Source: Bolinopsis microptera | Taxonomy: Eukaryota > Ctenophora > Tentaculata > Lobata > Bolinopsidae | Assembly (NCBI RefSeq): GCF_026151205.1 | Contig: NC_087072.1 | Coordinates: 2,127,375-2,191,374 of the forward strand | DNA length: 64,000 nt | Reading direction: 5' to 3' | Shown: positions 1,263-59,623 of the stretch, piece by piece | Position numbering within the stretch: the first letter of the stretch is position 1 | Layout of the letters: every line of letters begins with the position of its first letter | Notes under the pieces: generated by a model | The model's database searches: none | What the model saw: the letters and a program-made list of their open reading frames with translations, nothing else | What the model was told of the DNA's origin: nothing | Made by a program: the position numbers and the translations under genes

Positions 1263-1610
1263 TTACCCATAATTATAGCAAGAATTAAACCCGTACATAT
1301 AATCGTTCTGAATGTAATACTGACTCTGTCTTATCATTCTGTTTTTATCCTGGGCACTAGCAGCCCGGAGCCGACGAGTCTGTATAAAATAAGAGTGGTG
1401 GCAGGTTGCCACGTGACATGCTACCCTGTACTTGGTGTGGAATGTGGCATGGCACGTGTCCACAGGACAGGACAGGGTTTTGGGGGAGTGGGTTTTGAGG
1501 TGTTCTGTTAGGATGCACTTTCGGGAGAACTTGTTCCCGCACCGGTGACACTGGTAGCCTCGCACTCGGAGGTGTCGGTGCATCTGGTGGTACACCAGAC
1601 TCTTCTTTAA
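1263..1610 (-). CDS. Zinc-finger gene, last coding exon (fingers 8 to 10)
   Basis: Acceptor TTGCTGCAG at 1619-1611, phase 0. It completes finger 8 (HQMHRH), then has finger 9 (CHRC...HLKTH) and finger 10 (CPVDTC...HVATCH, a C-x4-C variant), and ends with a Tyr/Asn-rich tail at stop 1265-1263. A second identical acceptor 66 bp upstream, from a tandem duplication, would lead to a stop after about a dozen codons. Confidence 0.85.
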   Translation of the reverse strand, partial: LKKSLVYHQMHRHLRVRGYQCHRCGNKFSRKCILTEHLKTHSPKTLSCPVDTCHATFHTKYRVACHVATCHHSYFIQTRRLRAASAQDKNRMIRQSQYYIQNDYMYGFNSCYNYG

Positions 1611-4600
1611 CTGCAGCAAGTGAGTATTCAAATATTGGCTTTATGTTAATAACGAATAAGTTAGACTCTTCTTTAACTGCAGCAAGTGAGTATTCAAATA
1701 TTTGCTTTATTTTAATAACCAATAAGTTAGATCATCTTACATAATATCACCTCATTATATTAAGCTTTTTCTATTTATAGTACTACTACTGTATCACTAT
1801 ACAGCTCAGTAGATTGTTCTAGATCGAATATATGTGAACGTTTTTTTAAACACATCTTTAACATTTAAAAAGTTAAAGTGCTTTGAAAAGACAAATAACA
1901 CTATACACACATACACGATACAATTGACATCATGTATTATACTACTCAAAAACAGTTAGTACAGTAACTACTGACCTTGAAGGATTTGTCACACAGGCCA
2001 CAATGGAAGGATTTCTGCGTTGTGTGCACTAGGGAGTGTCTCTTCCGGTTCTTGTTGTTGTTAAATGAGAGGGGACACTCTGTACACAGGTACTTCTTCT
2101 TAGGATGACTCTGTAGAAGTTATGTAATACCGCGTGTGTGTGTGATATTGCCTAGTTGATACCAGGAAATGGCCGGTAGGTATCAACATCAAATAACGTT
2201 TTAGATCTAAACAATTAGCTAATTATATTCACTGTAGTCTGTCTCAAGTGTATAATAAAAGTGTAAACACCAGTGCTCACTGCTCACCAGTGCTCACTGC
2301 TCACCAGTGCTCACTGCTCACCAGTGCTCACTGCTCACCAGTGCTCACTGCTCACCAGTGCTCACTGCTCACCAGTACTCACTGCTCACCAGTGCTCACT
2401 GCTCACCAGTGCTCACTGCTCACCAGTGCTCACTGCTCACCAGTACTCACTGCTCACCAGTGCTCACTGCTCACCATTGCTCACTGCTCACCAGTGCTCA
2501 CTGCTCACCAGTGCTCACTGCTCACCAGTGCTCACTGCTCACCAGTGCTCACTGCTCACCAGTGCTCACTGCTCACCAGTACTCACTGCTCACCAGTGCT
2601 CACTGCTCACCATTGCTCACTGCTCACCAGTGCTCACTGCTCACCAGTGCTCACTGCTCACCAGTGCCCACTGCTCACCAGTACTCACTGCTCACCAGTG
2701 CTCACTGCTCACCAGTGCTCACTGCTCACCAGTGCCCATTGCTCACCAGTGCTCACTGCTCACCAGTGCTCACTGCTCACCAGTGCCCACTGCTCACCAG
2801 TATTCACTGCTCACCAGTGCTCACTGCTCACCAGTGCTCACTGCTCACCAGTGCTCACTGCTCACCAGTGCTCACTGCTCACCAGTGCTCACTGCTCACC
2901 AGTGCTCACTGCTCACCAGTGCTCACTGCTCACCAGTGCTCACTGCTCACCAGTGCTCACTGCTCACCAGTGCTCACTGCTCACCAGTGCTCACTGCTCA
3001 CCAGTGCTCACTGCTCACCAGTGCTCACTGCTCACCAGTGCTCACTGCTCACCAGTGCTCACTGCTCACCAGTGCTCACTGCTCACCAGTGCTCACTGCT
3101 CACCAGTGCTCACTGTTCACCAGTGCTCACTGCTCACCAGTACTCACTGCTCACCAGTGCTCACTGCTCACCAGTGCTCACTGCTCACCAGTACTCACTG
3201 CTCACCAGTGCTCACTGCTCACCAGTACTCACTGCTCACCAGTGCTCACTGCTCACCAGTACTCACTGCTCACCAGTACTCACTGCTCACCAGTGCTCAC
3301 TGCTCACCAGTACTCACTGCTCACCAGTGCTCACTGCTCACCAGTACTCACTGCTCACCAGTGCTCACTGCTCACCAGTACTCACTGCTCACCAGTGCTC
3401 ACTGCTCACCAGTGCTCACTGCTCACCAGTGCTCACTGCTCACCAGTGCTCACTGCTCTGTGTACATAGGCTCTATCAGTACATTTAGGAATTAGGTGTC
3501 TGGTGTACACTTCCAATATAATGTGAGTTAAAAATTAGCGGATTTCTTCACTAGATGAACCTCCTGAAGATTCTTCCTAGAATAAAACACATGCTAAAGC
3601 AACTTACATCAACATGGCTCCACCATTCGTGAAGAGTCTCGAAGTAACCATTACAGTCTCGGCATCTCAAGGTTTTTCGCACATGCTGCAAGATAGGAAA
3701 TTTAAATTCTTAACAAACTAATTAAAATGTTAGTAGTTTGGGGTTGTATCTTTAAAAAGTAAAATTCTCATACATTTCCTGCTATGCCGAGTAAATTATA
3801 CCAAATTGGGACGGTGGCCCTTGTTCACTATAACACGTGTATAGTGTATAAAAACTACACAAGTTACCATGACAACTACCAACCTGCACTAGTTACCATG
3901 ACAACTACACTTGTTACCATGACAACTACACTACCTGCATAAGACGATGCCTCCTCAGATTGTACGAGCTCTGAAAGTAGATCCCACAAGCCTCGCAGTT
4001 CCACTGGGTCTGAGTATCGTGTGTTGTCACGTGACGCTTTAGAGACTGCTGACATCCAAATGTTTTATCACACTGAGAGGGACGTATTTAAGATACAAGT
4101 TTATATTATGATGTAAAGTAGATTGGCATTATTATTGCGGACTTTGGGGGAAGGAACCAGCAGTAAATCGGGGTTTTCGGTTAGTAGGGGTTTTGGTTTT
4201 TGAATCCAAAATTGTTTAAAAACGAGTGTAGAAAGGTTTGTGGTATCGCGATAAAAGTTAACCGTATTAAAAGTAATATAATCAAATTGTTGCTGTCTGT
4301 AGAGGAGACTAGAGGACGCTGTTCCCCATATTATTCAGATAATAATGTGTCTTCCCTTAGATTATTCGATTTTCAGTTATCTGAGCTACATTGTATCAGT
4401 TTGTTATTTCTGTTTATATACTTATATTACTGTAGGTATTAGATTACATTTTTTTGTAATTTTAAACAACTTGTATCACAATAAAGGAAATATATCAGAA
4501 TTTTTGAAAGTGCTCCAAATACTCTCAAACAATACCTTAGATCTGTTTTTCAAACATTTGGGAAACAAAGTTGCCACAATACATCGAGAGGGGATGCGGT

Positions 4601-7600
4601 TTTAATTTATTATTTTATCAATGGTTTTTGAAATATTATATAATCAACGTTAATAATAATGCAAGAAACAAAAGAGCGATGAACTGACTTAACAGTTAAC
4701 ATTGAACAGTTAACATTATAAAATAAAAGTAGGAGTGCTAAAGAGCAGAATTACCTGACTACAAGAAATCTGTCGTTCATACGGAGTATGCATTCTTCTG
4801 GTGTGCCTGGAATACAACAATTTACTTAAGTTAAGCGACTTAACATACGGAGTGTGCATTCTTCTCGTGTGCCTGGAATAAAACAATTTACGTAAGTTAA
4901 GCGACTTAACATACGGAGTATGCATTCTTCTGGTGTGCCTGGAATACAACAATTTACTTAAGTTAAGCGACTTAACATACGGAGTATGCATTCTTCTGGT
5001 GTGCCTGGAATAAAACAATTTACTTAAGTTAAGCGACTTAACATACGGAGTATGCATTCTTCTGGTGTGCCTGGAATAAAACAATTTACTTAAGTTAAGC
5101 GACTTAACATACGGGGTATGCATTCTTCTGGTGTGCCTGGAATAAAACAATTTACTTAAGTTAAGCGACTTAACATACGGGGTATGCATTCTTCTGGTGT
5201 GCCTGGAATAAAACAATTTACTTAAGTTAAGGGACTTAACATACGGAGTATGCATTCTTCTGGTGTGCCTGGAATAAAACAATTTACTTAAGTTAAGGGA
5301 CTTAACATACGGGGTATGCATTCTTCTGGTGTGCCTGGAATAAAACAATTTACTTAAGTTAAGCGACTTAACATACGGAGTATGCATTCTTCTGGTGTGC
5401 CTGGAATAAAACAATTTACTTAAGTTAAGGGACTTAACATACGGAGTATGCATTCTTCTGGTGTGCCTGGAATTAAACAATTTACTTAAGTTAAGCGACT
5501 TAACATACGGGGTATGCATTCTTTTCGTGTGCCTGGAATAAAACAATTTACTTAAGTTAAGCGACTTAACATACGGAGTATGCATTCTTCTGGTGTGCCT
5601 GGAATAAAACAATTTACTTAAGTTAAGCGACTTAACATACGGGGTATGCATTCTTTTCGTGTGCCTGGAATAAAACAATTTACTTAAGTTAAGCGACTTA
5701 ACATACGGAGTATGCATTCTTCTGGTGTGCCTGGAATAAAACAATTTACTTAAGTTAAGCGACTTAACATACGGAGTATGCATTCTTCTGGTGTGCCTGG
5801 AATAAAACAATTTACTTAAGTTAAGCGACTTAACATACGGAGTGTGCATTCTTCTGGTGTGCCTGGAATAAAACAATTTACTAAATTTAAGCGACTTAAC
5901 ATACGGAGTATGCATTCTTCTGGTGTGCCTGGAATTAAACAATTTACTTAAGTTAAGCGACTTAACATACGGAGTATGCATTCTTCTGGTGTGCCTGGAA
6001 TAAAACAATTTACTTAAGTTAAGCGACTTAACATACGGAGTATGCATTCTTCTGGTGTGCCTGGAATAAAACAATTTACTTAAGTTAAGCGACTTAACAT
6101 ACGGAGTATGCATTCTTCTGGTGTGCCTGGAATAAAACAATTTACTTAAGTTAAGCGACTTAACATACGGAGTATGCATTCTTCTGGTGTGCCTGGAATA
6201 AAACAATTTACTTAAGTTAAGCGACTTAACATACGGAGTATGCATTCTTCTGGTGTGCCTGGAATAAAACAATTTACTTAAGTTAAGCGACTTAACATAC
6301 GGAGTATGCATTCTTCTGGTGTGCCTGGAATAAAACAATTTACTTAAGTTAAGGGACTAAACATACGGGGTATGCATTCTTCTGGTGTGCCTGAAATAAA
6401 ACAATTTACTTAAGTTAAGGGACTTAACATACGGAGTATGCATTCTTCTGGTGTGCCTGGAATAAAACAATTTACTTAAGTTAAGCGACTTAACATACGG
6501 AGTATGCATTCTTCTGGTGTGCCTGGAATAAAACAATTTACTTAAGTTAAGCGACTTAACATACGGAGTATGCATTCTTCTGGTGTGCCTGGAATAAAAC
6601 AATTTACTTAAGTTAAGGGACTTAACATACGGAGTATGCATTCTTCTGGTGTGCCTGGAATAAAACAATTTACTTAAGTTAAGCGACTTAACATACGGAG
6701 TATGCATTCTTCTGGTGTGCCTGGAATAAAACAATTTACTTAAGTTAAGCGACTTAACATACGGAGTATGCATTCTTCTGGTGTGCCTGGAATAAAACAA
6801 TTTACTTAAGTTAAGCGACTTAACATACGGAGTATGCATTCTTCTGGTGTGCCTGGAATAAAACAATTTACTTAAGTTAAGCGACTTAACATACGGAGTA
6901 TGCATTCTTCTGGTGTGCCTGGAATAAAACAATTTACTTAAGTTAAGGGACTAAACATACGGGGTATGCATTCTTCTGGTGTGCCTGGAATAAAACAATT
7001 TACTTAAGTTAAGGGACTTAACATACGGGGTATGCATTCTTCTGGTGTGCCTGGAATAAAACAATTTACTTAAGTTAAGGGACTTAACATACGGGGTATG
7101 CATTCTTCTGGTGTGCCTGGAATAAAACAATTTACTAAATTTAAGCGACTTAACATACGGGGTATGCATTCTTCTGGTGTGCCTGGAATAAAACAATTTA
7201 CTTAAGTTAAGGGACTTAACATACGGGGTATGCATTCTTCTGGTGTGCCTGGAATAAAACAATTTACTTAAGTTAAGCGACTTAACATACGGAGTATGCA
7301 TTCTTCTGGTGTGCCTGGAATTAAACAATTTACTTAAGTTAAGCGACTTAACATACGGAGTGTGCATTCTTCTGGTGTGCCTGGAATAAAACAATTTACT
7401 TAAGTTAAGGGACTTAACATACGGAGTATGCATTCTTCTGGTGTGCCTGGAATTAAACAATTTACTTAAGTTAAGCGACTTAACATACGGAGTATGCATT
7501 CTTCTGGTGTGCCTGGAATAAAACAATTTACTTAAGTTAAGGGACTTAACATACGGAGTATGCATTCTTCTGGTGTGCCTGGAATAAAACAATTTACTTA

Positions 7601-10600
7601 AGTTAAGCGACTTAACATACGGGGTATGCATTCTTTTGGTGTGCCTGGAATAAAACAAGCGACTTAAGTTAAGCGACTTAACATACGGAGTATGCATTCT
7701 TCTGGTGTGCCTGGAATTAAACAATTTACTTAAGTTAAGCGACTTAACATGCGGGGTATGCATTCTTCTGGTGTGCCTGGAATAAAACAATTTACTTAAG
7801 TTAAGCGACTTAACATACGGGGTATGCATTCTTCTGGTGTGCCTGGAATAAAACAATTTACTTAAGTTAAGCGACTTAACATACGGGGTATGCATTCTTC
7901 TGGTGTGCCTGGAATAAAACAATTTACTTAAGTTAAGCGACTTAACATACGGGGTATGCATTCTTCTGGTGTGCCTGGAATAAAACAAGCGACTTAAGTT
8001 AAGCGACTTAACATACGGGGTATGCATTCTTCTGGTGTGCCTGGAATAAAACAATTTACTTAAGTTAAGCGACTTAACATACGGAGTATGCATTCTTCTG
8101 GTGTGCCTGGAATTAAACAATTTACTTAAGTTAAGCGACTTAACATACGGGGTATGCATTCTTCTGGTGTGCCTGGAATAAAACAATTTACTTAAGTTAA
8201 GCGACTTAACATACGGGGTATGCATTCTTCTGGTGTGCCTGGAATAAAACAATTTACTTAAGTTAAGCGACTTAACATACGGAGTATGCATTCTTCTGGT
8301 GTGCCTGGAATAAAACAATTTACTTAAGTTAAGCGACTTAACATACGGAGTATACATTCTTCTGGTGTGCCTGGAATAAAACAATTTACTTAAGTTAAGC
8401 GACTTAACATACGGGGTATGCATTCTTCTGGTGTGCCTGGAATAAAACAAGCGACTTAAGTTAAGCGACTTAACATACGGAGTATGCATTCTTCTGGTGT
8501 GCCTGGAATTAAACAATTTACTTAAGTTAAGCGACTTAACATGCGGGGTATGCATTCTTCTGGTGTGCCTGGAATAAAACAATTTACTTAAGTTAAGCGA
8601 CTTAACATACGGGGTATGCATTCTTCTGGTGTGCCTGGAATAAAACAATTTACTTAAGTTAAGGGACTTAACATACGGGGTATGCATTCTTCTGGTGTGC
8701 CTGGAATTAAACAATTTACTTAAGTTAAGCGACTTAACATACGGAGTATGCATTCTTCTGGTGTGCCTGGAATAAAACAATTTACTTAAGTTAAGGGACT
8801 TAACATACGGGGTATGCATTCTTTTCGTGTGCCTGGAATAAAACAATTTACTTAAGTTAAGCGACTTAACATACGGAGTATGCATTCTTCTGGTGTGCCT
8901 GGAATAAAACAATTTACTTAAGTTAAGCGACTTAACATACGGGGTATGCATTCTTCTGGTGTGCCTGGAATAAAACAATTTACTTAAGTTAAGCGACTTA
9001 ACATACGGAGTATGCATTCTTCTGGTGTGCCTGGAATAAAACAATTTACTTAAGTTAAGCGACTTAACATACGGGGTATGCATTCTTCTGGTGTGCCTGG
9101 AATAAAACAATTTACTTAAGTTAAGCGACTTAACATACGGGGTATGCATTCTTCTGGTGTGCCTGGAATAAAACAATTTACTTAAGTTAAGCGACTTAAC
9201 ATACGGAGTATGCATTCTTCTGGTGTGCCTGGAATAAAACAATTTACTTAAGTTAAGGGACTTAACATACGGAGTATGCATTCTTCTGGTGTGCCTGGAA
9301 TAAAACAATTTACTTAAGTTAAGCGACTTAACATACGGGGTATGCATTCTTCTGGTGTGCCTGGAATAAAACAATTTACTTAAGTTAAGGGACTTAACAT
9401 ACGGAGTATGCATTCTTCTGGTGTGCCTGGAATAAAACAATTTACTTAAGTTAAGCGACTTAACATACGGAGTATGCATTCTTCTGGTGTGCCTGAAATA
9501 AAACAATTTACTTTAGTTAAGCGACTTAACATACGGAGTATGCATTCTTCTGGTGTGCCTGGAATAAAACAATTTACTTAAGTTAAGCGACTTAACATAC
9601 GGAGTATGCATTCTTCTGGTGTGCCTGGAATAAAACAATTTACTTAAGTTAAGGGACTTAACATACGGAGTATGCATTCTTCTCGTGTGCCTGGAATAAA
9701 ACAAGCGACTTAAGTTAAGGGACTTAACATACGGGGTATGCATTCTTCTCGTGTGCCTGGAATAAAACAATTTACTTAAGTTAAGGGACTTAACATACGG
9801 AGTATGCATTCTTCTGGTGTGCCTGGAATAAAACAATTTACTTAAGTTAAGCGACTTAACATACGGAGTATGCATTCTTCTCGTGTGCCTGGAATAAAAC
9901 AAGCGACTTAAGTTAAGGGACTTAACATACGGGGTATGCATTCTTCTCGTGTGCCTGGAATAAAACAATTTACTTAAGTTAAGGGACTTAACATACGGAG
10001 TATGCATTCTTCTCGTGTGCCTGGAATAAAACAAGCGACTTAAGTTAAGGGACTTAACATACGGGGTATGCATTCTTCTCGTGTGCCTGGAATAAAACAA
10101 TTTACTTAAGTTAAGCGACTTAACATACGGAGTATGCATTCTTCTGGTGTGCCTGGAATAAAACAATTTACTTAAGTTAAGGGACTTAACATACGGAGTA
10201 TGCATTCTTCTGGTGTGCCTGGAATAAAACAATTTACTTAAGTTAAGCGACTTAACATACGGAGTATGCATTCTTCTGGTGTGCCTGGAATTAAACAATT
10301 TACTTAAGTTAAGGGACTTAACATACGGAGTATGCATTCTTCTGGTGTGCCAAGAATAAAACAATTTACTTAAGTTAAGCGACTTAACATAAGGAGTATG
10401 CATTCTTCTGGTGTGCCAAGAATTAAACAATTTACTTAAGTTAAGCGACTAAACATACGGAGTATGCATTCTTCTGGTGTGCCAAGAATTAAACAATTTA
10501 CTTAAGTTAAGGGACTTAACATACGGAGTATGCATTCTTCTGGTGTGCCTGGAATAAAACAATTTACTTAAGTTAAGCGACTTAACATACGGAGTATGCA

Positions 10601-13600
10601 TTCTTCTGGTGTGCCTGGAATAAAACAATTTACTTAAGTTAAGCGACTTAACATACGGAGTATGCATTCTTCTGGTGTGCCTGGAATAAAACAATTTACT
10701 TAAGTTAAGCGACTTAACATACGGAGTATGCATTCTTCTGGTGTGCCTGGAATAAAACAATTTACTTAAGTTAAGCGACTTAACATACGGAGTATGCATT
10801 CTTCTGGTGTGCCTGGAATAAAACAATTTACTTAAGTTAAGGGACTAAACATACGGGGTATGCATTCTTCTCGTGTGCCTGGAATAAAACAATTTACTTA
10901 AGTTAAGCGACTTAACATACGGAGTATGCATTCTTCTGGTGTGCCTGGAATAAAACAATTTACTTAAGTTAAGCGACTTAACATACGGAGTATGCATTCT
11001 TCTGGTGTGCCTGGAATAAAACAATTTACTTAAGTTAAAGGACTTAACATACGGAGTATGCATTCTTCTGGTGTGCCTGGAATACAACAATTTACTTAAG
11101 TTAAGGGACTTAACATACGGAGTATGCATTCTTCTGGTGTGCCTGGAATAAAACAATTTACTTGAGTTAAGCGACTTAACATACGGAGTATGCATTCTTC
11201 TGGTGTGCCTGGAATAAAACAATTTACTTAAGTTAAGGGACTTAACATACGGAGTATGCATTCTTCTGGTGTGCCTGGAATAAAACAAGCGACTTAAGTT
11301 AAGGGACTTAACATACGGGGTATGCATTCTTCTGGTGTGCCTGGAATACAACAATTTACTTAAGTTAAGCGACTTAACATACGGAGTATGCATTCTTCTG
11401 GTGTGCCTGGAATAAAACAAGCGACTTAAGTTAAGGGACTTAACATACGGAGTATGCATTCTTCTGGTGTGCCTGGAATACAACAATTTACTTAAGTTAA
11501 GCGACTTAACATACGGAGTATGCATTCTTCTGGTGTGCCTGGAATAAAACAAGCGACTTAAGTTAAGGGACTTAACATACGGAGTATGCATTCTTCTGGT
11601 GTGCCTGGAATACAACAATTTACTTAAGTTAAGCGACTTAACATACGGAGTATGCATTCTTCTGGTGTGCCTGGAATAAAACAATTTACTTGAGTTAAGC
11701 GACTTAACATACGGAGTATGCATTCTTCTGGTGTGCCTGGAATAAAACAATTTACTTAAGTTAAGGGACTTAACATACGGAGTATGCATTCTTCTGGTGT
11801 GCCTGGAATAAAACAAGCGACTTAAGTTAAGGGACTTAACATACGGGGTATGCATTCTTCTGGTGTGCCTGGAATAAAACAATTTACTTAAGTTAAGCGA
11901 CTTAAAATACGGAGTATGCATTCTTCTGGTGTGCCTGGAATTAAACAATTTACTTAAGTTAAGGGACTTAACATACGGAGTATGCATTCTTCTGGTGTGC
12001 CTGGAATAAAACAATTTACTTAAGTTAAGCGACTTAAAATACGGAGTATGCATTCTTCTGGTGTGCCTGGAATTAAACAATTTACTTAAGTTAAGCGACT
12101 TAACATACGGGGTATGCATTCTTCTGGTGTGCCTGGAATAAAACAATTGTCTTAAGTTAAGCGACTTAACATACGGGGTATGCATTCTTCTCGTGTGCCT
12201 GGAATAAAACAATTGTCTTAAGTTAAGAACCTTTATTAACTAATACCATAACAATAATAAAGGACATTGACTTGAAAATAATAAAGAAAACCTTTAGTTT
12301 TAAAAGAAAACCACCAAATAAACGAGAACTCACATCCTAAGACTAACTTTAGTCTTGAAGACCTTCAAACAGTGGACACAAGAGAGGTTGCTATTGGTAT
12401 GTACATTCCGAACATGGTCCTGCAGACACCGGTCACTGTTGAACATTTTACCGCACATTTGGCACGGCATCGCACCATTACACACCTCCACGTGGGTTTT
12501 GTACCGCTTTTTATGTTTGAACTCCTTCTGGCACTGACTGCAGGTCAACTGTAAATAAGGGGTTTGGAAAATGTGGTTTCGGGGATTAAAAACGATTTAT
12601 TCTTGTTCTATTCAGCATTTTTTGTAGTCAAAAAAGCTTCTTGGTAGTCAAAAATCAAGCATAATAGTCAAAAGCTTTGACAATAAAATTGCAGAAAACT
12701 TACAACGACTTTTTTCTTGGCATTGGTTTCTACGTTATCATCCGATTTATCTGCAAAAGAAGAATAATTAAGCCACTTGTGGAGTTATGGTCATCAACTA
12801 GCTATAACTAATTGATCCACTTTGAATATTATGAAACTACTTAAAATGTAGAGGAGAATTACCTTACGTAGTCACTCTAAGGTATTACCTGGCGCTATCA
12901 AGGATGGATAATCGCTTATCAGAAGCTTTGGATTGTCTTTAACATGAATATTCGGTTGGAAAACCATGGGTGACTGAAGTAGTCAACAAATTAGTAACAA
13001 ATTAGTAACAAATTAGTAACAAATTAGTAACAAATTAGTAACAAATTAGTAACAAATTAGTAACAAATTAGTAACAAATTAGTAACAAATTAGTAACAAA
13101 TTAGTAACAAATTAGTAACAAATTAGTAACAAATTAGTAACAAATTAGTAACAAATTAGTAACAAATTAGTAACAAATTAGTAACACATTAGTAACAAAT
13201 TAGTAACAAATTAGTAACAAATTAGTAACAAATTAGTAACAAATTAGTAACAAATTAGTAACAAATTAGTAACAAATTAGTAACAAATTAGTAACAAATT
13301 AGTAACAAATTAGTAACAAATTAGTAACAAATTAGTAACAAATTAGTAAAAAATTATATTAACAAATTAGTTACAAATTAGTAACACATTAGTAACAAAT
13401 TAAACAACACTAATCGTTAACCCATCATATGATTTTCACAACACTGAACTACTTTATCATTTGATACTGATTCAATGGCACATATTATAATGATGATACT
13501 AAACAATACTCACATGTAGAGGATAACACTCAGTAGCAGGGTCTCTAGTGACGTAGTAGGGATTAGAAGGTTTGCAGAAATAACACATGCAATTCCTGTG

Positions 13601-13853
13601 CTGATTCCAGAACCTGGTCAAATATTGTCAGTTTTAATCGTTTATATTTAAGTTTTCATAATTTAGTCATTACAATTAAACCACCAACAATATTTTCCAC
13701 CTACAAAATCCTTCCATTAGTCTTTACTAATATAATAGTACTTACTGAATACTGATATAGTACTTACTGATAGAGGAATTCATAAGATGGTTTATCGAAA
13801 TCATACTGGATAGTCCCAGATGACACCCCAATTATTGTACAGGATGCAGACAT
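1263..13853 (-). CDS. C2H2 zinc-finger protein, ten coding exons (whole gene model)
   Basis: Coding exons in transcript order: 13853-13768, 13613-13514, 12973-12889, 12750-12704, 12548-12334, 4806-4755, 4072-3935, 3685-3608, 2110-1976, 1610-1263. All junctions are GT-AG with matching phases; the total is 1284 nt, or 427 residues. The first 106 residues hold no finger but have a small CMCYFC cluster. Ten C2H2-type fingers follow, starting at residue 109 (that one C2HC) and running to about residue 375. Fingers 3, 4, 5, 6 and 8 are each split by an intron, and the spacing C-x2-C-x12-H-x3-4-H is met exactly after splicing; this is strong support for the model. The tail is basic and then Tyr/Asn-rich. 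Linkers are not the TGEKP type. A nuclear nucleic-acid-binding role is expected for the family; the target is unknown. A likely 3' splice site lies one base before the ATG. About 9 of 12.6 kb is intronic minisatellite. Confidence 0.85.
1597..1728. repeat. 66-bp tandem duplication across the exon 10 splice acceptor
   Basis: Two adjacent 66-bp copies (1597-1662, 1663-1728) with a few differences. Each contains 52 nt of intron with the CTTGCTGCAG acceptor plus the first 14 nt of exon 10. The copy nearer the exon body is the usable one. Confidence 0.9.
1976..2110 (-). CDS. Zinc-finger gene, coding exon 9 (fingers 7 and first part of 8)
   Basis: Acceptor CTTCTACAG, donor AAG|GTCAGT, 135 nt, phase 0. 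Finger 7 is CTEC...HSLVH and finger 8 begins CGLCDKSFK. Confidence 0.85.
2268..3462. repeat. 17-bp minisatellite, about 70 copies, in intron 8
   Basis: Near-perfect tandem repeat of CAGTGCTCACTGCTCAC. Variants are mostly one base (GTACTCAC, CATTGCTCAC, GTGCCCAC), with several variants recurring in runs. No stop occurs in the unit, and 17 is not a multiple of three, so three long overlapping plus-strand frames appear; they are by-products of the repeat, not genes. It lies between exons 9 and 8. Confidence 0.95.
3608..3685 (-). CDS. Zinc-finger gene, coding exon 8 (finger 6)
   Basis: Acceptor TATCTTGCAG, donor GAT|GTAAGT, 78 nt, phase 0. It supplies the last His of finger 5 and finger 6 from CRDC to HVD. 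The final His of finger 6 comes from the SH that opens exon 9. Confidence 0.85.
3856..3945. repeat. Short imperfect repeat at the exon 7 donor
   Basis: Three copies of TTACCATGACAACTAC with variable spacers. Two copies are followed by ACCTGCA, and the last of these is the exon 7 donor itself. This is another small tandem duplication touching a splice site of the same gene. Confidence 0.7.
3935..4072 (-). CDS. Zinc-finger gene, coding exon 7 (fingers 4 and 5)
   Basis: Acceptor CCCTCTCAG, donor CAG|GTAGTG, 138 nt, phase 0 both ends. It carries the second part of finger 4 (ending HVTTH) and finger 5 from CEAC up to RRHRLMQ; the last His of finger 5 is the first residue of exon 8. Confidence 0.85.
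4073..4754. other. Intron 6 of the zinc-finger gene, nothing else seen
   Basis: AT-rich intron. Open frames at 4200-4442 and 4345-4605 show no domain or codon pattern and are not called. Confidence 0.55.
4755..4806 (-). CDS. Zinc-finger gene, coding exon 6, founder of the 66-bp satellite
   Basis: A 52-nt exon in the lowest-coordinate unit of the 66-bp array. Acceptor TATTCCAG at 4814-4807, donor CAG|GTAATT, phase 2 to 0. It completes finger 3 with HTRRMH and starts finger 4 with CSQ; exon 7 begins CDKTFG, giving CSQC and a perfect finger 4. Other array units share its acceptor and first 28 nt but then read GTTAAG instead of GAACGACAG, so only this copy leads to a sensible protein. Which acceptor the cell uses among so many identical ones is open. 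Confidence 0.85.
4781..12227. repeat. 66-bp satellite array, about 113 copies, built from the exon 6 splice acceptor
   Basis: Length divided by period gives about 113 units; they are highly similar. On the minus strand a unit reads acceptor TTTTATTCCAG, then 28 nt matching the start of exon 6, then GTTAAGTCGCTTAACTTAAG. Common variants are GGAGTATG/GGGGTATG, TAAGCG/TAAGGG, TTCTGG/TTCTCG and ACAATTTAC/ACAAGCGAC; the last recurs at regular multi-unit spacing around 9690-11820, which suggests higher-order copying. Since 66 is a multiple of three, a 22-residue repeat is open in long minus-strand blocks, ended mostly by a CTAAAC variant that makes a stop. Three neighbouring units near 10340-10490 read GTGCCAAG on the plus strand and have lost the acceptor AG. 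Confidence 0.95.
12334..12548 (-). CDS. Zinc-finger gene, coding exon 5 (fingers 1, 2 and the first part of 3)
   Basis: Acceptor TTATTTACAG, donor AT|GTGAGT, 215 nt, phase 0 to 2. Finger 1 is CSQC...HVEVC (C2HC), finger 2 is CQMC...HVRNVH, and finger 3 begins CVHCLKVFKTKVSLRM. The missing HxxxxH of finger 3 is supplied by exon 6, 7.5 kb away. Confidence 0.85.
12704..12750 (-). CDS. Zinc-finger gene, coding exon 4
   Basis: Acceptor TCTTTTGCAG, donor GTT|GTAAGT, 47 nt, phase 1 to 0. It encodes a charged linker (KSDDNVETNAKKKVV) just before the first finger. Confidence 0.65.
12889..12973 (-). CDS. Zinc-finger gene, coding exon 3
   Basis: Acceptor CTACTTCAG, donor CCAG|GTAATA, 85 nt, phase 0 to 1. 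It encodes SPMVFQPNIHV and onward. Too short and finger-free to be called alone; the phases on both sides fix it. Confidence 0.6.
12985..13400. repeat. 11-bp minisatellite (AACAAATTAGT), about 37 copies, in intron 2
   Basis: Almost perfect repeats, with a few changed units near 13180 and 13350-13400 (AACACATTAGT, a TATATT insertion). It lies between exons 3 and 2, beginning 12 bases upstream of the exon 3 acceptor. Confidence 0.95.
13514..13613 (-). CDS. Zinc-finger gene, coding exon 2
   Basis: Acceptor TTTGACCAG, donor CAT|GTGAGT, 100 nt, phase 2 to 0. It encodes FWNQHRNCMCYFCKP and ends ATECYPLH. The Cys pair spacing CMCYFC is not a C2H2 finger. Confidence 0.7.
13768..13853 (-). CDS. Zinc-finger gene, coding exon 1
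   Basis: Starts at ATG 13853-13851 and ends in phase 2 at donor CA|GTAAGT. It gives MSASCTIIGVSSGTIQYDF and onward, with no finger. AG at 13856-13855 is one base upstream of the exon's first base and could be a cis or trans acceptor. Confidence 0.7.
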
Positions 13854-18223: not shown

Positions 18224-19767
18224 TCAACAGGCAGGTTTTTTAATCCAAACGCCATAATTCTTCTCCTTTACAAACTTATTATAAACTTCCTTCGCCTCAC
18301 AATATTCGGTAATCCGCTCCTTAACCTTGTTATAATCCTTACACTCGGCCCCAGAAAACTCCTCATACTCCTTCAGCACACTAACACGAGCAAGTCTGGA
18401 GATGACACCCTTAGCGCACCTCCCCCGACACCCATCCAGCACCTCCACCTTGTCATCACCTGCACACCAGTTCATACTCATTTCATTGGTTTTACCCAGC
18501 TCCCTCTCAGCCTCCTGACCAGGCACACATCCCAGCAGTGGGTGGTTGAGGCGGTAGGGGGCCGGGAGGGGGATGTCATTGTAACGACAGCACACTGCGC
18601 GGGACAGGTGACCGTGGTGGTAGAGACAGCCCAGTGTCAGCGAGGACAGGTAGACGGGTTCCAGGTACTCAGAGAGGAGACAACCTTGCAGGCCCAGTAT
18701 GTTCCATCTGCTCACTTTATCACTGCAGGACATCGTTTTTAACCTTTGGTCGCCCATCATAATACCGTCGATTGTGAGAGGATCTTCTGAGGATGATGTT
18801 GGGTTGGTTCCTTGGCCTGATTCCATTTTGCTTCTCAGCAAGCCCTGTTTTTCGTTTTCCATCGTTGGATCATGTGCGACCACGTGTTCATTTGACTGTG
18901 TAGCTTCGGAAATGGGGAATATTGCGCTGTCACCACAGGGCGCGGTGCTGATGAAAAGATGAACTCTGACTTTGTGGTTCAGCCTGTATTTACCACCTGG
19001 AGTTTCCTCCAAAACAGCATCAAACGGCATCGCCTTTCCCTCCTTCCCAGTGACAGTTCGCAGCTGTTTCCACAAAAATCGTCGAAATCCACGTCTGGCA
19101 GTTATTTCAGCATGTGAATCATTGACAGTTTTACCCTCAAAGTTGATGTTATCACCATTCACTGTCCTGTTTCCTGATCCAAGGGAAACAGCGGACCACA
19201 AAGGTAAACCTGATCGTGAATCTTCGATGATGAAAACAGAAATAACTTTTCTTCCAACGGTTGAAAGATGCACGGATGCAGCTAATTTGTTGTAAGTGTC
19301 ATAGGAGAATCTCCCGACTTTACCGAAAAATCCAGTACCCTCGATCGTGCTACTATGGATAGGAGTGAACTCGTTAATCTGATCAACTAATATCTCAGGA
19401 TCCCTGGAACTCTTTTGAGAGACATCAACGACTGCCGTGGACACAGGCACAGCCCCGGACCGCTCTGAGTGTAACATTCTCAGTGCTAGTTCAGCCACAT
19501 TCTGTTTGGCCACCTTTTTGCTGGTGGCTACTGAGTCAAACGTGCGATCCCCCATGGTTAGTCTCATGTGAAATTTCTTTCGATTTGTGGGGCCAGATGT
19601 GCGTGTAATGTTGAAGGCTGGAGCGAGTCCGTTAGCTTGGGCGAGTTCAATTATAGCCGAGATGGGATTCTTGTTGATTGAGTCATGGGCTATTTTACTA
19701 CTTATTTGGATGGCACTTACAGGGTTCAACCTTGCAGTCTTAGCTTGGAATGCTGAACTTTGATCAC
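18224..19767 (-). CDS. ADAR: ADAR last exon, RNA-binding domain and deaminase
   Basis: Acceptor ATATTTACAG, 1544 nt, one uninterrupted exon for the dsRBD and the whole catalytic domain. The dsRBD has NPISAIIELAQANGL at its start and ends KKVAKQNVAELALRML. The deaminase carries HAE, PCG and SCSDK, then RWNILGLQG and GHLSRAVCCRY. The Gln codon CAA in the flipping loop is at 18814-18812. Confidence 0.9.
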
Positions 19768-21866
19768 CTGTAAATATTTTGTTCATCAGGTTAAAATAGT
19801 TGATTTAACAATCATATATAATACATATATATTATAGATCCAGATAAACAAAACAAATTCAGAGTGAAAAAAAATTTGATGAACTAAATTATCTATAGCA
19901 TTTAAATATCGATCATTTACACTTCAGGCACTAAAGTAGCTGAATAAATAACCAAGGAAAGATATTTGCAGTTTAAGAAAAACCTGGCATGGGCAGAGGA
20001 GCTGATCTCTTGGAAGGAAATGTAGATTTTGTAATTTTCTTGAGATTAATCGCATACATTGGCTCTTCATTCCCCATGTCAATCTGCAATATTCAGTTTA
20101 CATCAACATTTACATCAACATTTACATCAACATTTACACAACATTTACACAACATTTACACAACATTTACACAACATTTCCATTTTCCATCATCGTATGA
20201 TCACATTAAATGGCTCATTTCCTTGTTATTTGTGATCACGACAAGAGTGAAATAGAAAAAATAAAAATCTGACATGACATTATCATTACCTTGATGATAA
20301 AGCCCTTATCTATCAATCCCGTACAAAGGTTATGCGTCACGTATCCTCCACCCATTTTCAGCTGTCTGATTGTCCAAGGATTGTTGCTGCTTTTCATCTT
20401 ATCTAGAACAAGTTGTTCCGTACTGGTCAAGGTGTCTTTTTCATTCCTGATAAATTAGATGTTAAATAACTGGTAAAATAATTATAATATGCAATTATTT
20501 TCACTTTAATTTTAAGTAACTGGAAAAGTTTATTCAAAGTAGTAATCATAACAACAACTTGTGATGCCTATGGTGTATTTCTAATATGAGGGTTGGATTA
20601 AAAGTTGAAATACCCACAATATTTACCTAGTGTTTTCTCCATCATGATCTTCTTCCACAAATCTGCTTCTTGAAGGGTGAATTTCAACACCTCGATGATT
20701 TGAAGCGTCAGATTTTAATGCTCCTTGTAGTCTCACTGAGGGACGTGGAGGGGCACTGGTTCCAGCTGCCTGGTTAAATCTAATCGGTCGAGGAGGAGGT
20801 CTACTGCTTGAAAATCCAGGAGACAAAGAAACAGGTATGTTATTACTTATTGGCCGAGGGGCACTGTAGTGAGGTGCAGGCAACCTATTTATGGACAGAG
20901 GAGGAGCTCTTGTAGACTGATTTAGAGCTGCTCCCGGCTGAGCTATTGGTTGAACTGGTCTAGCACCAGAGGAAGGTGGTCTAGTAGGGACTGGACGAGA
21001 ATGTCTTGGTGTGGCCGGGTGTGTAAATGTGGAGCTGGGGATCGGACGAGGAGTGGGTCTAGGCCTTATCGCAGACGAATTGTTGTTACCTGGAAAAGTT
21101 TGACAACATAAATATTTCATCATTATCTGTGTTAAAGGAATATTTAAAACGAGCACGTTATGATGTCAAAAAAACATAAAACAAAAAGAATCATTTGTAA
21201 TATAAAATAATTTAGTATAAAATATGACTCGAATAATATTGTATTTTATACTTTACATTCGATTATGCCTAAAATGTGTTGGAAACTTAGTCCTCTCTAG
21301 GATCCCAACACACTGAAATATTAGACATGAGCGAATAATTTTAATTAGTAAGCAGTCTTTATCCTTGAACTAAATCTTGGCAAAATGTAAATTTATGTAC
21401 CAAGAAATGGTTCTAATTTATAAACTGCTTGTGACGTTGTAATGTTACCGCAGCCTTCATATTTTACGCTTCTACAAAACAATTGTTATGTCAACTGTTA
21501 TGTCAATGCCAAAAAATGAAATAACAATACAAATCGTCTTAACAAAAGGTGCTTTACTTCTGCAATATATTTGCTAGTGGTTAGTATCCATTTTGAGCTT
21601 TAGACCAGCCTTACTTTGAAATCAATCTTATTAAATCTTCAAACAAAAACCTGTATCATGCGAATTTATTTATTACCATGAAATTTCCCAAATTTTGGGT
21701 TGATGCACCACATCTCATCAGTTATCTTGACAATTTGACCTACTGAGGCTAATCTACCACAAGCCAACTCAGTTTCCTCTTTTGAGGATCTTGTACTTTT
21801 GGAAAGTTCAGCTGAAGAGCGAGGCCCTCCCGCAGAACGAAGTATTCTCACAATGTGATCTTCCAT
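18224..21866 (-). CDS. ADAR: ADAR-type double-stranded RNA adenosine deaminase (whole gene model)
   Basis: Coding exons: 21866-21677, 21089-20627, 20446-20290, 20083-19984, 19767-18224. Phases agree and total 2454 nt, or 817 residues. Order: a Z-alpha-like winged helix (residues about 2-57), a Pro/Ser/Arg-rich linker, a second winged helix (about 225-270), one double-stranded RNA binding domain (about 334-405) and the deaminase domain to the end. Zinc and catalytic residues are present: HAE (His522, Glu524), PCG (Cys581) and SCSDK (Cys651). The enzyme converts adenosine to inosine in duplex RNA, in the nucleus and possibly the cytoplasm. Human ADAR1 has three RNA-binding domains; here I see one. 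The base-flipping loop reads ESGQGT, where human ADAR1 and ADAR2 have ESGEGT-like Glu. The start was chosen as the ATG right after an acceptor (TTTAG) 7 nt upstream; more 5' exons are possible. Confidence 0.9.
19984..20083 (-). CDS. ADAR: ADAR small linker exon
   Basis: Acceptor AATATTGCAG, donor CCAG|GTTTTT, 100 nt, phase 0 to 1. It encodes IDMGNEEPMYAINLKK and a basic stretch (KSTFPSKRSAP). The phases on both sides fix it; the donor is weak. Confidence 0.7.
20087..20180. repeat. Short ACATTTAC tandem repeat in ADAR intron 4
   Basis: A run of ATTTACATCAAC units followed by ATTTACACAAC units, directly upstream of the acceptor of the small linker exon (20083). On the transcript it is a GT/A-rich tract next to the 3' splice site. 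Confidence 0.8.
20290..20446 (-). CDS. ADAR: ADAR exon with second winged helix (Z-beta-like)
   Basis: Acceptor TTTATCAG, donor AAG|GTAATG, 157 nt. It encodes EQLVLDKMKSSNNPWTIRQL and ends CTGLIDKGFIIK, the helix-turn-helix pattern of Z-domains. Contact residues differ from Z-alpha, as in human Z-beta. Confidence 0.8.
20627..21089 (-). CDS. ADAR: ADAR exon, disordered Pro/Ser/Arg linker
   Basis: Acceptor CTTTTCCAG, donor AG|GTAAAT, 463 nt. About 154 residues rich in RPxP, PSS and SRPPPRP, likely flexible. It joins the two winged helices and is acidic at the end (EEDHDGEN). Confidence 0.8.
21677..21866 (-). CDS. ADAR: ADAR exon with first Z-alpha-like winged helix
   Basis: It encodes MEDHIVRILRSAGGPRSSAE and ends after DEMWCINPKFGKFH in phase 1 (donor G|GTAATA). 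The wing Trp is kept, but the family's Asn, Tyr and wing Pro contacts to Z-form nucleic acid are not in the aligned positions. Confidence 0.8.
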
Positions 21867-24285: not shown

Positions 24286-24426
24286 CAGTGATAGTAGGAA
24301 GCAGGACGATCTACCCAACGACCTAACAACTGTGGAACTTTTCTTTTCTTTTGAGAGACATTGAGAGACATTTTGGAGTTTTTTTTTTAGAGACACTTTG
24401 GGAGTTTTTTTAGTCAAACTGTAATC

Positions 24427-26856
24427 ATGAGTCTTCGTGAGATACCTGTGTTAGACGATAGCGCTGACTACAGCACGTGGAAGAAAAAAGTGCTTATATG
24501 GCAGCTTGGAACCGGAGCATCAGTGAAACAGCAAGCAAGTAAACTTATCATGAACATGAATGGGAAACCACAGGAGGTTTCTATAAATATACCAATAAAG
24601 GTTCTAGGAGCTGAAGATGGAGTTGATAAACTCATTGCTGAACTGGACAAACTGTACAAGAAGGACGGTACTCAGTCTTTATTTAAGGCAATAGACGACT
24701 TTGAGAGATATAGAAGAGGAGATGGAGAAGATATCGACAACTACATCTTGGAATTCCAGCGGAGGTATCAGATCCTTAAACAGCTGAGAGAAAGCAAAGA
24801 GCTCTATGACGATATGATATTAGCATATAGACTGTTAAATCAGGCTAGCCTAAACGATGAACAGGCCAGATTAGTTAGAGCAACTTGCACTAGTACATTA
24901 TCTTATAACTTGATGCAAGAACAGTTAAAAAGGACATTCGGAGATGGATTTACAAGGAATGAGAATCAATCCAGTCTGCCTTTCAAAAGTACTCCAATGG
25001 AGGTGGTAAAGCAGGAACCCGTCTTTCTAACTGAGGATCAGCAAATGGGGTCTGACGTGCACTGGACCAGAAATGGGGATCATCAAAGAAACTTCACTGG
25101 TCAACCTATGAGAGGGGAAAACAGATATAACCCTTACGGTCAGAATAGAGGGCAGTCTAGATTCAACCCATATGCACAGAAACGAGGACAAAAGTCTTAC
25201 ATGAGGGGGAGCAGTAACCAAAGGATCAGTTGTTTTATATGCCATCAACCAGGTCATGTTGTCGCTGAGTGTTCTTTTAACACATTCGCTAAATCTCATC
25301 AAAAACAAGATGATGAGTCTCGCAGAAAGGTCTACGCTTTATTTGAATCAGATTTTTCACTTCCAGATTGCGAAGAAGAGATAATTTACTTAACAGGTGA
25401 ATGTACGAACAAAGCGTTGATAGATACAGGGGCATGTGCAACCATCTGTGGAAAGGAGTGGTTTACGGTGTATGAAAGCTCTTTGACTACAGAAGAGAGG
25501 AAACTGATACAGACTGAGACTACTGAAAGGACATTTCGATTTGGAGATGGTAAGCCAGTGAAGTCGATTGCTTTGAAAACTATACCTATTAACCTTTGCA
25601 ACAAAGATATGTTTTTGAAAACATACGTGGTGACGAACGATATTCCTCTTTTGCTAGCGAAGCAAACCATGACGAAAATGGGTATGGTACTAGACATGGA
25701 AAATATGACCCTAAAAATAAAAGACAGCAAAACACTGGAGAAGTTGCGGAGTACAAAATCGGGTCATGTAGCTGTGCCGATTGCACGTTGTGGAGATGGG
25801 CAAGAAAGTGGAGTAACTTATCAAGTGTCTGAAGAGCAAGACTGTGGAAAAACTGCTGACTTTTATCACCGTTACTACGCTCACGCATCAGCTGCGAAGA
25901 TAGGTAAAGTCATCAAAAACGCAAAGTTGAAAGATGGTAATAAGATCATAGAGGAGCTTGAGAAGATTGATCAAACATGTGATTTTTGCTTGAAGTACAA
26001 GACTAGATCTATTCCGAAGAGGAAAGTGGGAATCCCTCAAGCTTCAATTTTTAATGAAGTCGTTGCTATGGACTTAAAAATTATAAATGATGAGGTGACT
26101 TTACTACATATGGTTGATACCGTAACAAGGTATTCTGTGGCAGCTCGAGTGATCAGCAAGGAAGCTCAAGAAATACTTGATAAGGTATTTAAGCATTGGA
26201 TATCCATATTTGGACCACCATCGACCTTCATATCAGATAATGGTGGAGAATTTGTAAATGATTGTTTTAACCAAGCTTGCTCAGTACTGAACATCAAGAT
26301 TCAGACATCGCCAGCGTATTCACCTTGGTGCAATGGGATTGTAGAACGACACAACGGCATCTTGGGATGCATGATAAAATCTTTGTTAGAAGAAATGAGA
26401 TGTGATCCTGAAATTGCTATAGCGTGGTCTGTTAGTGCTAAAAATTCTCTCAGTAATACATACGGATTCAGCCCTCACCAACTAGTATTCGGAACAAACC
26501 CAAGGGTTCCTGGAATCATGGAAGAAAATATGACTCCTGGAACATTAAACCACGAAGGTGTTCTTAAAATAGTCAGTGATCACCTCAACGCTCTCTCTCT
26601 GGCTAGACTGAAGTTTGTTGAATTAGAAGCTAACGACAAGCTCAAGAGAGCACTCCAACAGAGGATATTTCCGCAAGCTAACTATAGATATTGCAGTGGC
26701 GATCTCGTGTACTTCAAGAGAAGTAAAAAGTTCTGGTATGGACCAGCAACAGTAATAGGACAGGTTGCTAATCAAGTTCTGATCAAGCACGGGGGTCACA
26801 TCGTGAGAGTGCATCCGTGTAAAGTGGTTCTTAAATCTAGAGCAAAAGAAGTTTGA
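24427..26856 (+). CDS. Copia gag-protease-integrase polyprotein (809 residues)
   Basis: An N-terminal gag region with coiled alpha-helical character, then one zinc knuckle (CFICHQPGHVVAEC, about residue 275), an aspartic protease (ALIDTGACATICG), the integrase zinc region (HRYYAHA ... CDFC) and the integrase core with MDLKI and FISDNGGEF. It ends at TGA 26854-26856. The next frame begins one base shifted with no gap, so a frameshift, programmed or mutational, separates it from the RT part. The start is the first ATG of the frame, after a T-rich leader. Confidence 0.85.
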   Translation: MSLREIPVLDDSADYSTWKKKVLIWQLGTGASVKQQASKLIMNMNGKPQEVSINIPIKVLGAEDGVDKLIAELDKLYKKDGTQSLFKAIDDFERYRRGDGEDIDNYILEFQRRYQILKQLRESKELYDDMILAYRLLNQASLNDEQARLVRATCTSTLSYNLMQEQLKRTFGDGFTRNENQSSLPFKSTPMEVVKQEPVFLTEDQQMGSDVHWTRNGDHQRNFTGQPMRGENRYNPYGQNRGQSRFNPYAQKRGQKSYMRGSSNQRISCFICHQPGHVVAECSFNTFAKSHQKQDDESRRKVYALFESDFSLPDCEEEIIYLTGECTNKALIDTGACATICGKEWFTVYESSLTTEERKLIQTETTERTFRFGDGKPVKSIALKTIPINLCNKDMFLKTYVVTNDIPLLLAKQTMTKMGMVLDMENMTLKIKDSKTLEKLRSTKSGHVAVPIARCGDGQESGVTYQVSEEQDCGKTADFYHRYYAHASAAKIGKVIKNAKLKDGNKIIEELEKIDQTCDFCLKYKTRSIPKRKVGIPQASIFNEVVAMDLKIINDEVTLLHMVDTVTRYSVAARVISKEAQEILDKVFKHWISIFGPPSTFISDNGGEFVNDCFNQACSVLNIKIQTSPAYSPWCNGIVERHNGILGCMIKSLLEEMRCDPEIAIAWSVSAKNSLSNTYGFSPHQLVFGTNPRVPGIMEENMTPGTLNHEGVLKIVSDHLNALSLARLKFVELEANDKLKRALQQRIFPQANYRYCSGDLVYFKRSKKFWYGPATVIGQVANQVLIKHGGHIVRVHPCKVVLKSRAKEV

Positions 26857-27845
26857 AATTGAAGGAAGTGGTGCAACCTTGCAGGGCCAGGGGAATGTTG
26901 GTAAGCCTATTATAATCTCCGAGTCGGTTTATCGAGCAGCAGTGGAGGAAGTTAGGCCTGGGGAAAATACTACTCAGTCTATAGAGTTTGATGATATAGA
27001 AGATGAGGACGAGGAGGCCCCAGTAACAACTGTTCAAACATTGGTAGAAGATAGGGCTCAATCTATAGAATCTCATGACACAGTGAATGTAGATGACACA
27101 GCGAATGTAGACGTCTCTTCTATAACAGATGTCTCTGCTGAAACCACAGAAACGGAAACCTCGACGGAGGTAGATGAAGCTAATACAGAAACAGACAACT
27201 CAATCTGGAATAGTATATCTGGGGATTCTACAAAAATCCGACTGATTAGAGGAGATGTGATACGTTTTAGATCTGAGGATGAGGAACCTTGGAAATACGG
27301 AATGATCGAGAAGAGAGCTGACAAGACGTCAGAATGTTCGAGAAATTCATTTCAAATCGAACAGGATCTAGTGGAAGAGCCAATAATAGTAGATTTGGAA
27401 AAGCATCATGTTGAGAAACAAGAAGGTAATCAAAGGAATACAACTGTACTATTGATGCAAGAAGATGCTGAGCCTTATATCTTCGCAATCGGAATACAGG
27501 ACTCAAAGAAGATAGACGTTGCTAAGGAACAGGAACTGAAAAGACTGTCAGAATTCGGAGTATACCAAGAAACTAAAGATACGGGACAAAGTCATGTATC
27601 ATCAAGGTGGGTAGTAACTACTAAGGGAGAAAACGATGAGCAAGTTAAAGCAAGACTGGTTGCTAGAGGTTTCGAGGAGAATTGTGTCATGAGGAAAGAC
27701 TCTCCTACGGTAACTAAGGTAGTTATTAGACTGTTATTTTCACTAGCAGCTTCATATAATTGGACTGTTGACACTTTAGATGTAACCAGTGCTTTTCTAC
27801 AAGCTAAAGGAACTATGAGAGACGTATTTGTTAAACCTCCCCGTG
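26857..27845 (+). pseudogene. Copia linker and first part of reverse transcriptase, cut by Gypsy-1
   Basis: Open frame +1 relative to the upstream ORF. Acidic linker (DIEDEDEEAP, Thr/Glu-rich), then the Copia RT start (SSRWVVTTKGE, VKARLVARGFEE) and the first catalytic Asp (DTLDVTSAFLQAKG). It is interrupted at 27845 by the LTR of Gypsy-1. Confidence 0.85.
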
Positions 27846-27940
27846 TATTGTATTGTCAATTGTACTAATAACTTACTAACTTCAGGGGTTCAACTTAGAA
27901 CTATATGTTTGTTTCTCTTGGTTCAATAGGAGACACTTTA
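27846..27940 (+). repeat. Gypsy-1 5' LTR (95 bp)
   Basis: Matches 32575-32669 except at two positions (CTTAGAAC/CTTATAAC, GGTTCAAT/GGTACAAT). It is unusually short for an LTR, with no clear TATA box. Confidence 0.85.
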
Positions 27941-27953
27941 TTGGCGACGAGGA

Positions 27954-32126: not shown

Positions 32127-32574
32127 CAATTTAAGCCTTGGCAGCACCCTCATGGTGATTGATTATGATTTTTATTCTTGAATGATTTTTTATCTCGTTT
32201 TTATAGATGTATTTAATTATTTGACAAAGTGACGTGTTTTATCTCAATTGTTAACATTTTCTACTTTTTTTTACGATTTCGAGGCTGTAGAAAGTATCTT
32301 GTTGTCAACATTCTGTCGCCGCGCGCGCGCGCGCCGCCCGTTCGTAATATGTTGATCGGTAAAGATAGTTTCTAGCTTTGACTTTTTGGGGGACAATTAA
32401 GTTATTAAAATTAGTCTTGTTTCTAGAACTCTTGGAAGAAGGAGTGTGACCGGATCTAATTTGTTATGTATGTTTTTGAATTTGCAGCTTGTTAAGGTAT
32501 TAATGATTAATATCATTTTATATCTTTTGTATGATTTTGATTTAATATTTATTAAAATATTTAAAGAGGAGTGA
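32127..32574 (+). other. Gypsy-1 3' untranslated region
   Basis: Non-coding. It contains an alternating CG run (CCGCGCGCGCGCGCGCCG at about 32319-32336) and ends in the purine tract before the 3' LTR. Confidence 0.7.
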
Positions 32575-32669
32575 TATTGTATTGTCAATTGTACTAATAA
32601 CTTACTAACTTCAGGGGTTCAACTTATAACTATATGTTTGTTTCTCTTGGTACAATAGGAGACACTTTA
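32575..32669 (+). repeat. Gypsy-1 3' LTR (95 bp)
   Basis: Partner of 27846-27940, followed directly by the second CCGTG target copy. Confidence 0.85.
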
Positions 32670-32674
32670 CCGTG

Positions 32675-58492: not shown

Positions 58493-59623
<1,131 letters not shown>

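Follow-up and report, generated by a model that had tools for sequence, protein, structure and literature searches.

How does a gene find the correct splice site when its intron ends in a row of more than a hundred nearly identical ones? The question is raised by a 64,000-nucleotide stretch of the genome of the ctenophore Bolinopsis microptera (contig NC_087072.1, positions 2,127,375 to 2,191,374; the window), in which intron 5 of a C2H2 zinc-finger gene on the minus strand holds a tandem array of 66-base-pair (bp) units, each carrying a copy of the gene's own 3' splice site and of the beginning of exon 6. Our analysis makes it probable that a duplication across the intron/exon border grew into an array of decoy splice sites, that such events recur in this region above the expectation of uniform seeding, and that the exon-proximal copy is the functional one, chosen by exon definition.

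Tandem Repeats Finder (TRF) placed the array at 4778-12227 with a period of 66, 112.9 copies, 96% matches and 0% indels, and a fuzzy search of the minus strand for the acceptor core returned 113 sites, spaced by exactly 66 bp in 112 of 112 cases; with 112 equal spacings, chance is excluded. The satellite with about 113 acceptors that a first-pass annotation had described at this locus is thus real, and its unit is indeed composed of the gene's own 3' splice site and the start of exon 6, the exonic part measuring 29 nucleotides (nt), however, instead of the 28 given there. In the minus-strand consensus, these 29 nt read GCACACCAGAAGAATGCATACTCCGTATG and the remaining 37 nt TTAAGTCGCTTAACTTAAGTAAATTGTTTTATTCCAG, the latter with a CTTAAC motif, which we take to resemble a branch point, a pyrimidine tract and CAG. 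Head-to-tail units in the 10-100 bp class and of high identity make the array a minisatellite, and a unit that overlaps an exon border, with copies that hold the splice dinucleotide, makes it a splice-junction minisatellite. The 112 units upstream of the true exon comprise 39 distinct sequences, with a mean identity of 97.7% to the consensus, and AG is intact at 110 of the 113 acceptors, units 26-28 having TG instead. Ratchet points for recursive splicing, in which AG is directly followed by GT, are not present in the zinc-finger units, which read CAG/GCAC (slashes mark splice junctions).

Ten minus-strand exons join in consistent phase into a protein of 427 residues that reads through the array locus, and Pfam recognizes zf-C2H2 (7.2e-17) and zf-C2H2_4 (5.9e-19) in the joined product, identifying a C2H2 gene. 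Exon 5 closes with ...CVHCLKVFKTKVSLR and two bases of the codon that follows; exon 6 contributes MHTRRMH and opens the next finger, which exon 7 completes, in agreement with the earlier claim that exons 5-6-7 rebuild two C2H2 fingers. The HTRRMH half could be restored by any 66-bp unit. The copy at 4806-4755 alone constitutes a whole exon of 52 nt with a donor: here the last unit runs on as AACGACAGATTTCTTGTAGTCAG/GTAATT, and beyond the 29 nt common to all copies the true exon reads AACGACAG...TCAG/GTAATT, so that the first-pass annotation was also right in letting only the lowest-coordinate unit continue to the GTAATT donor.

That annotation had further called such arrays unusual, a judgement that the surroundings of the window, of which we examined 100 kb on each side, do not support: junction arrays recur at both donors and acceptors, at exon 10 of the zinc-finger gene and in the genes for ADP-dependent glucokinase (ADPGK; Pfam PF04587, 1.3e-101; PDB 5ccf, 8.2e-46), DDRGK1 (PF09756, 3e-57; PDB 8qfc, 4.6e-46) and SRP19 (PF01922, 6.5e-29; PDB 1jid, 3.4e-24). 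At exon 10, the two copies are identical at 63 of 66 positions, their acceptors ending before 1676 and 1610; this is an early-stage case of a junction-spanning duplication, and we treat the period of 66 bp that it has in common with the exon 6 array as a coincidence. In the neighbouring genes, homologues align ungapped over the array-bearing junctions NR/YIVHRD and TATR/YVCGD of ADPGK, EFI/DFLKTKK and ING/VIDDRGKF of DDRGK1, and LGR/VKVQL of SRP19. This gap-free homology covers five junctions (ADPGK two, DDRGK1 two, SRP19 one), the first ADPGK array, where the alignment begins, falling outside this check.

To quantify this recurrence, we counted an array of period at least 20 as a junction array when its TRF interval contained at least 4 nt of a mapped exon as well as at least 4 nt of intron, in gene models built in this analysis for this one region. 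For the null, arrays were collapsed to one unit and a piece of unit length could fall with equal chance anywhere in the collapsed gene except wholly within an exon. The test included a fourth neighbour gene, presumably CD2BP2-like, which is unconfirmed, for which Pfam returned no family, and whose one array straddles no junction. Of the 12 arrays in the four neighbour genes, 6 were junction arrays against 1.91 expected (P=1.3e-3), and inclusion of the zinc-finger gene gives 8 of 16 against 2.88 (P=7.9e-4); ADPGK by itself contributes three of three against 0.34 (P=0.0015). These numbers strongly suggest that junction arrays recur in the region above the expectation from uniform seeding.

As to origin, a short local tandem duplication would have crossed the border between intron 5 and exon 6, copying the 3' splice site together with 29 nt of exon. 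The added copy would have come to lie on the intron side, leaving the original exon whole, and it was probably tolerated for this very reason. Unequal exchange or slippage may then have carried the array to 113 copies, resulting in a locus-specific minisatellite of decoy splice sites, whose other copies we presume to be silent; both the duplication mechanism and this silence are inferred. We searched the species' own assembly (264,652,675 bases, 232 contigs; very common words skipped, repeat counts being lower bounds) with two copies of the unit and obtained one candidate place, all 50 matches listed lying within this array, while for the SRP19 56-bp unit 14 of 14 matches listed fall in one place. 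Both units map to one place each among the matches listed, which supports a local origin; a dispersed satellite or transposon source was rejected, no second place appearing among these matches in the assembly. Two further candidates were set aside: higher-order repeats, with mean unit differences of just 1.98-2.60 over lags 1-24 (minimum at lag 2), and a hairpin as the cause, with the exon 6 and exon 10 66-bp units folding no better than shuffles (z -0.86 and +0.84).

Which copy is used? The copy closest to the exon is the one compatible with the protein in each of the eight arrays mapped: the last copy of an acceptor array, the first of a donor array. In seven of the eight, the next copy out leads to a stop or a frameshift, zinc-finger exon 6 being the exception; the upstream acceptor of exon 10, for instance, runs into a stop after 11 codons. 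Exon definition, the pairing of both splice sites across a short exon, would single out this copy: the last acceptor would face the exon 6 donor 52 nt off, and in donor arrays the first donor would face the exon's own acceptor. A rule favouring the shortest intron is disfavoured, as whole arrays would stay in the messages, whereas cross-exon pairing fits both sides.

Several observations weigh against this interpretation. The eight positions alone are no proof of exon definition, because an array beside an intact exon must lie on its intron side, and the choice of copy is deduced from reading frame and homology. Human F7 has been explained by oriented scanning rather than exon definition (PMC6627357), and downstream repeat copies of human IFI6 are also used (PMC4526556), so that leakage to other copies is possible. 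With regard to recurrence, the zinc-finger gene by itself is without excess (2 of 4 against 0.97 expected, P=0.24), and the 135-bp DDRGK1 array that we counted has a chance probability of 0.79 of straddling a junction. A scan of 37 array units for splice-like motifs found no clear enrichment: 5' sites occur in 8 of 37 against 1.63 expected, yet a single 54-bp coding repeat from a gene cluster accounts for five of these eight, and 3' sites occur in 13 of 37 against 9.65. With gene models of our own, one unconfirmed gene, the 0.79 array and a single region, the recurrence is thus a strong suggestion, short of proof. It could also be ordinary, an explanation that we regard as somewhat doubtful but a serious one: under random seeding, exons and introns that were short before expansion would give a fair share of arrays across junctions. 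A randomly placed 66-bp unit straddles a junction with a probability of 0.38 in the collapsed zinc-finger gene, where 2 of 4 is not unusual, and arrays are plentiful here, covering 49,833 of the 264,000 bases of window and flanks; the excess in the four neighbour genes and in ADPGK, in a small one-region sample, speaks against it. An assembly artefact, which the very regular spacing might bring to mind, is hardly credible given the 39 distinct units and the similar arrays in conserved, readable genes.

For the choice of site, too, other explanations can be put forward. Exon 5 might be joined to any of the last 24 units, turning the array into a coding linker of variable length; as 66 equals 3 x 22, the isoforms would carry n x 22 added residues (HTRRMHTPYVKSLNLSKLFYSR) between two intact fingers. 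Indeed, 24 of the 113 acceptors (units 90-113) read open in frame to the end of exon 6, each completing the exon 5 finger, and the downstream copies employed in IFI6 offer a parallel. However, in-frame stops interrupt five units (21, 27, 41, 80 and 89), the next copy brings a stop or frameshift in the other seven mapped arrays, and the 25 variant types (6 silent, 17 missense, 2 stop, against 6.0, 17.9 and 1.1 expected) reveal no coding constraint, making a linker unlikely. Since these types appear neutral in that frame, there is no sign of array translation, and a selected coding repeat was rejected on the match to neutral expectation. Scanning from 5' to 3' would account for first-donor use in donor arrays, as it does in the review's account of F7, but in acceptor arrays it would favour the first unit and thereby keep the five in-frame stops in the zinc-finger message, while for ADPGK and SRP19 the next copy out already gives a stop; we consider it improbable. 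Very improbable, finally, is serial intron gain, in which each unit would be spliced as a 24-nt exon and a 42-nt intron via a GTATGT donor at the duplication joint. The duplication does cross a 3' border and does carry this latent donor (CCGTATGTT in 107 of 112 units and not in the true exon), much like the latent donor that became active in potato after a duplication across a 3' border (PMC4974935). Yet the candidate donor fits 5 of 9 consensus positions, compared to 6 to 8 for the gene's nine real donors, and 42 nt is very short for a gene whose other introns exceed 130 nt.

Table 1. Arrays and exons in window coordinates; negative values lie in the left flank, and window coordinate x equals C1 coordinate 2127374+x. 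Copy numbers for ADPGK, DDRGK1 and SRP19 are sites with at most 3 mismatches.
Feature	Position	Strand	Period and copies	Remarks
66-bp array	4807..12227	(-)	112 units of 66 bp	preceded by a partial unit
Full array unit		(-)		29-nt copy of exon 6 start + 37 nt (branch-like motif, pyrimidine tract, CAG)
Exon 1 of model	13768..13853	(-)		first ATG seen; more 5' exons possible
Exon 2	13514..13613	(-)
Exon 3	12889..12973	(-)
Exon 4	12704..12750	(-)
Exon 5	12334..12548	(-)		phase 2 end, then donor GTGAGT
True exon 6	4755..4806	(-)		52 nt, exon-proximal copy, then donor GTAATT
Exon 7	3935..4072	(-)
Exon 8	3608..3685	(-)
Exon 9	1976..2110	(-)
Exon 10	1265..1610	(-)		to base preceding stop codon region found at 1265
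Exon 10 acceptor duplication	1597..1738	(-)	66 bp, 2.2 copies	unit holds acceptor TTGCTGCAG and 14 exonic nt
11-bp array	12980..13402	(-)	11 bp, 38 copies	stops 7 nt from exon 3; unit holds TTACTAAT; no exon sequence
ADPGK acceptor array	-2296..-2079		44 bp, 5 copies
ADPGK acceptor array	-5013..-3563 (C1:2122361-2123811)		about 34 bp, 43 copies
ADPGK donor array	-9113..-8076		18 copies
DDRGK1 donor array	-70826..-67396		47 bp, 72 copies
DDRGK1 donor array	-73393..-71033		135 bp, 19 copies
SRP19 acceptor array	-81571..-80786		56 bp, 14 copies
Acceptor array, by eye	-12809..-11740			stretch without Pfam family
Donor duplication, by eye	-15533..-15380			stretch without Pfam family
Donor array, by eye	-43985..-41988			adjoins Kazal exon (PF07648, 1.5e-9)

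Elsewhere in the flanks, we inspected array edges by eye in three batches, which contained clear junction arrays in 3 of 4, 3 of 4 and 3 of 7 cases; as splice scores or reading frames nearby had guided the choice of batches, these fractions are no survey. In the last batch, the array at -85780 is borderline (an acceptor with just 2 nt of exon), that at -74304 is no junction array, that at -74967, at a start-codon exon, is uncertain and that at -37126 was not called either way. From four other contigs, we sampled 40 kb at one fixed position each; these samples held nine TRF arrays of at least 100 bp after merging of overlapping rows, eight of which were read, one array of stretch L032 being clipped by the stretch start. 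One of the eight is a clear donor array, with six copies at 8986-9281 of L030; its gene has a DUF4139 match below the Pfam cut-off. A possible donor duplication stands at 707-814 of L031, where the Pfam search gave no family.

Further repeats were seen in and around the same genes. The 11-bp array near exon 3, whose TTACTAAT we take to be a branch-point-like motif, looks like a multiplied branch point plus pyrimidine tract, and intron 8 of the zinc-finger gene contains, at 2268-3458 and away from exon edges, a 17-bp array of 70 copies that repeats a donor-like GTGAGC on the minus strand. The ADPGK units at -5013..-3563 read CTCAG/GTACAT, an acceptor directly followed by GT that could serve as a recursive-splicing point. 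At the SRP19 start-codon exon (TTTATAG/CATGG) stands a 65-bp array with roughly 3 copies (C1:2052407-2052623, -74967..-74751), perhaps an array in the 5' untranslated region or of trans-splice acceptors; trans-spliced leaders are mentioned for the ctenophore Hormiphora (PMC8527503).

Other features of the window and its flanks stand apart from splice junctions. At 24391-33825, a long reading frame that we assume to be of retrotransposon type is flanked by two pieces of another frame, and the residues ETLY recur at either edge, which would suit a nested insertion. A coding minisatellite of 33 bp and 34 copies occupies C1:2078401-2079519 (-48973..-47855) within an open frame (KKPRTEDGGDE repeats), and at several places in C1:2199940-2249360 of the right flank a C2H2 gene cluster shares a 54-bp coding repeat, PELIKTEIKKEGLEDCNL, in varying copy number. 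Genes for an ADAR-type deaminase (18224-19804), a protein kinase (58493-59620) and a choline kinase (60446-61486) each hold a whole Pfam domain in one intronless open frame.

Work on scanning, intron proximity and exon pairing has usually relied on a handful of engineered splice sites. The genes described here offer 2 to 113 natural copies, of acceptors as well as donors, in which the conserved products reveal which copy must work, and are thus natural tests of choice among many near-identical splice signals. Whether exon/intron junctions are preferred birthplaces of minisatellites throughout the genome, yielding 2 to more than 100 copies of a splice site among which only exon definition would keep genes working, is a finely balanced proposition that we lean slightly against. 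If such recurrence held throughout the genome, it would turn the genome into a natural experiment on splice-site choice and indicate an unsuspected preference in minisatellite seeding and a continuing supply of decoy splice sites, which would bear on intron gain and on mis-splicing beside repeats, and possibly be a source of new introns and exons.

A literature search of partial coverage found no genome with recurrent junction arrays and no acceptor array this large. Tandem repeats make up 13% of the Hormiphora genome (PMC8527503), and the terms 'tandem' and 'minisatellite' were not found in the available part of a ctenophore chromatin study (PMC12221973). Like intronic minisatellites in general, the arrays described here are locus-specific, homogenised and built of short units, but they differ in having a splice junction and some exon sequence in the unit. 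Among the closest likenesses is human F7, in which intron 7 contains near-identical 37-bp repeats with the true donor in the first copy, and donors further downstream are normally not used (PMC6627357): there, too, a row of repeats carries splice sites and the true site resides in one end copy, although on the donor side and in one gene, compared to 113 acceptor copies, and several genes of one region, here. The human IFI6 (6-16) minisatellite with multiple splice donors (Turri 1995, by its title, as cited in PMC4526556) likewise supplies extra splice sites, but these are donors whose downstream copies are used, whereas here the conserved proteins require the exon-proximal copy. Intron gain by tandem duplication, the model of Rogers 1989, is represented by potato RdRp, where the duplicated segment spanned a 3' intron/exon border and included an acceptor with its branch site and pyrimidine tract (PMC4974935), as we propose for the zinc-finger gene; a single duplication sufficed there for a new, spliced intron, while the arrays described here reach up to 113 copies, with no splicing of single units known. 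Single splice-junction repeats and intron gain at a 3' border are thus already published; what the Bolinopsis arrays add is their recurrence and their size.

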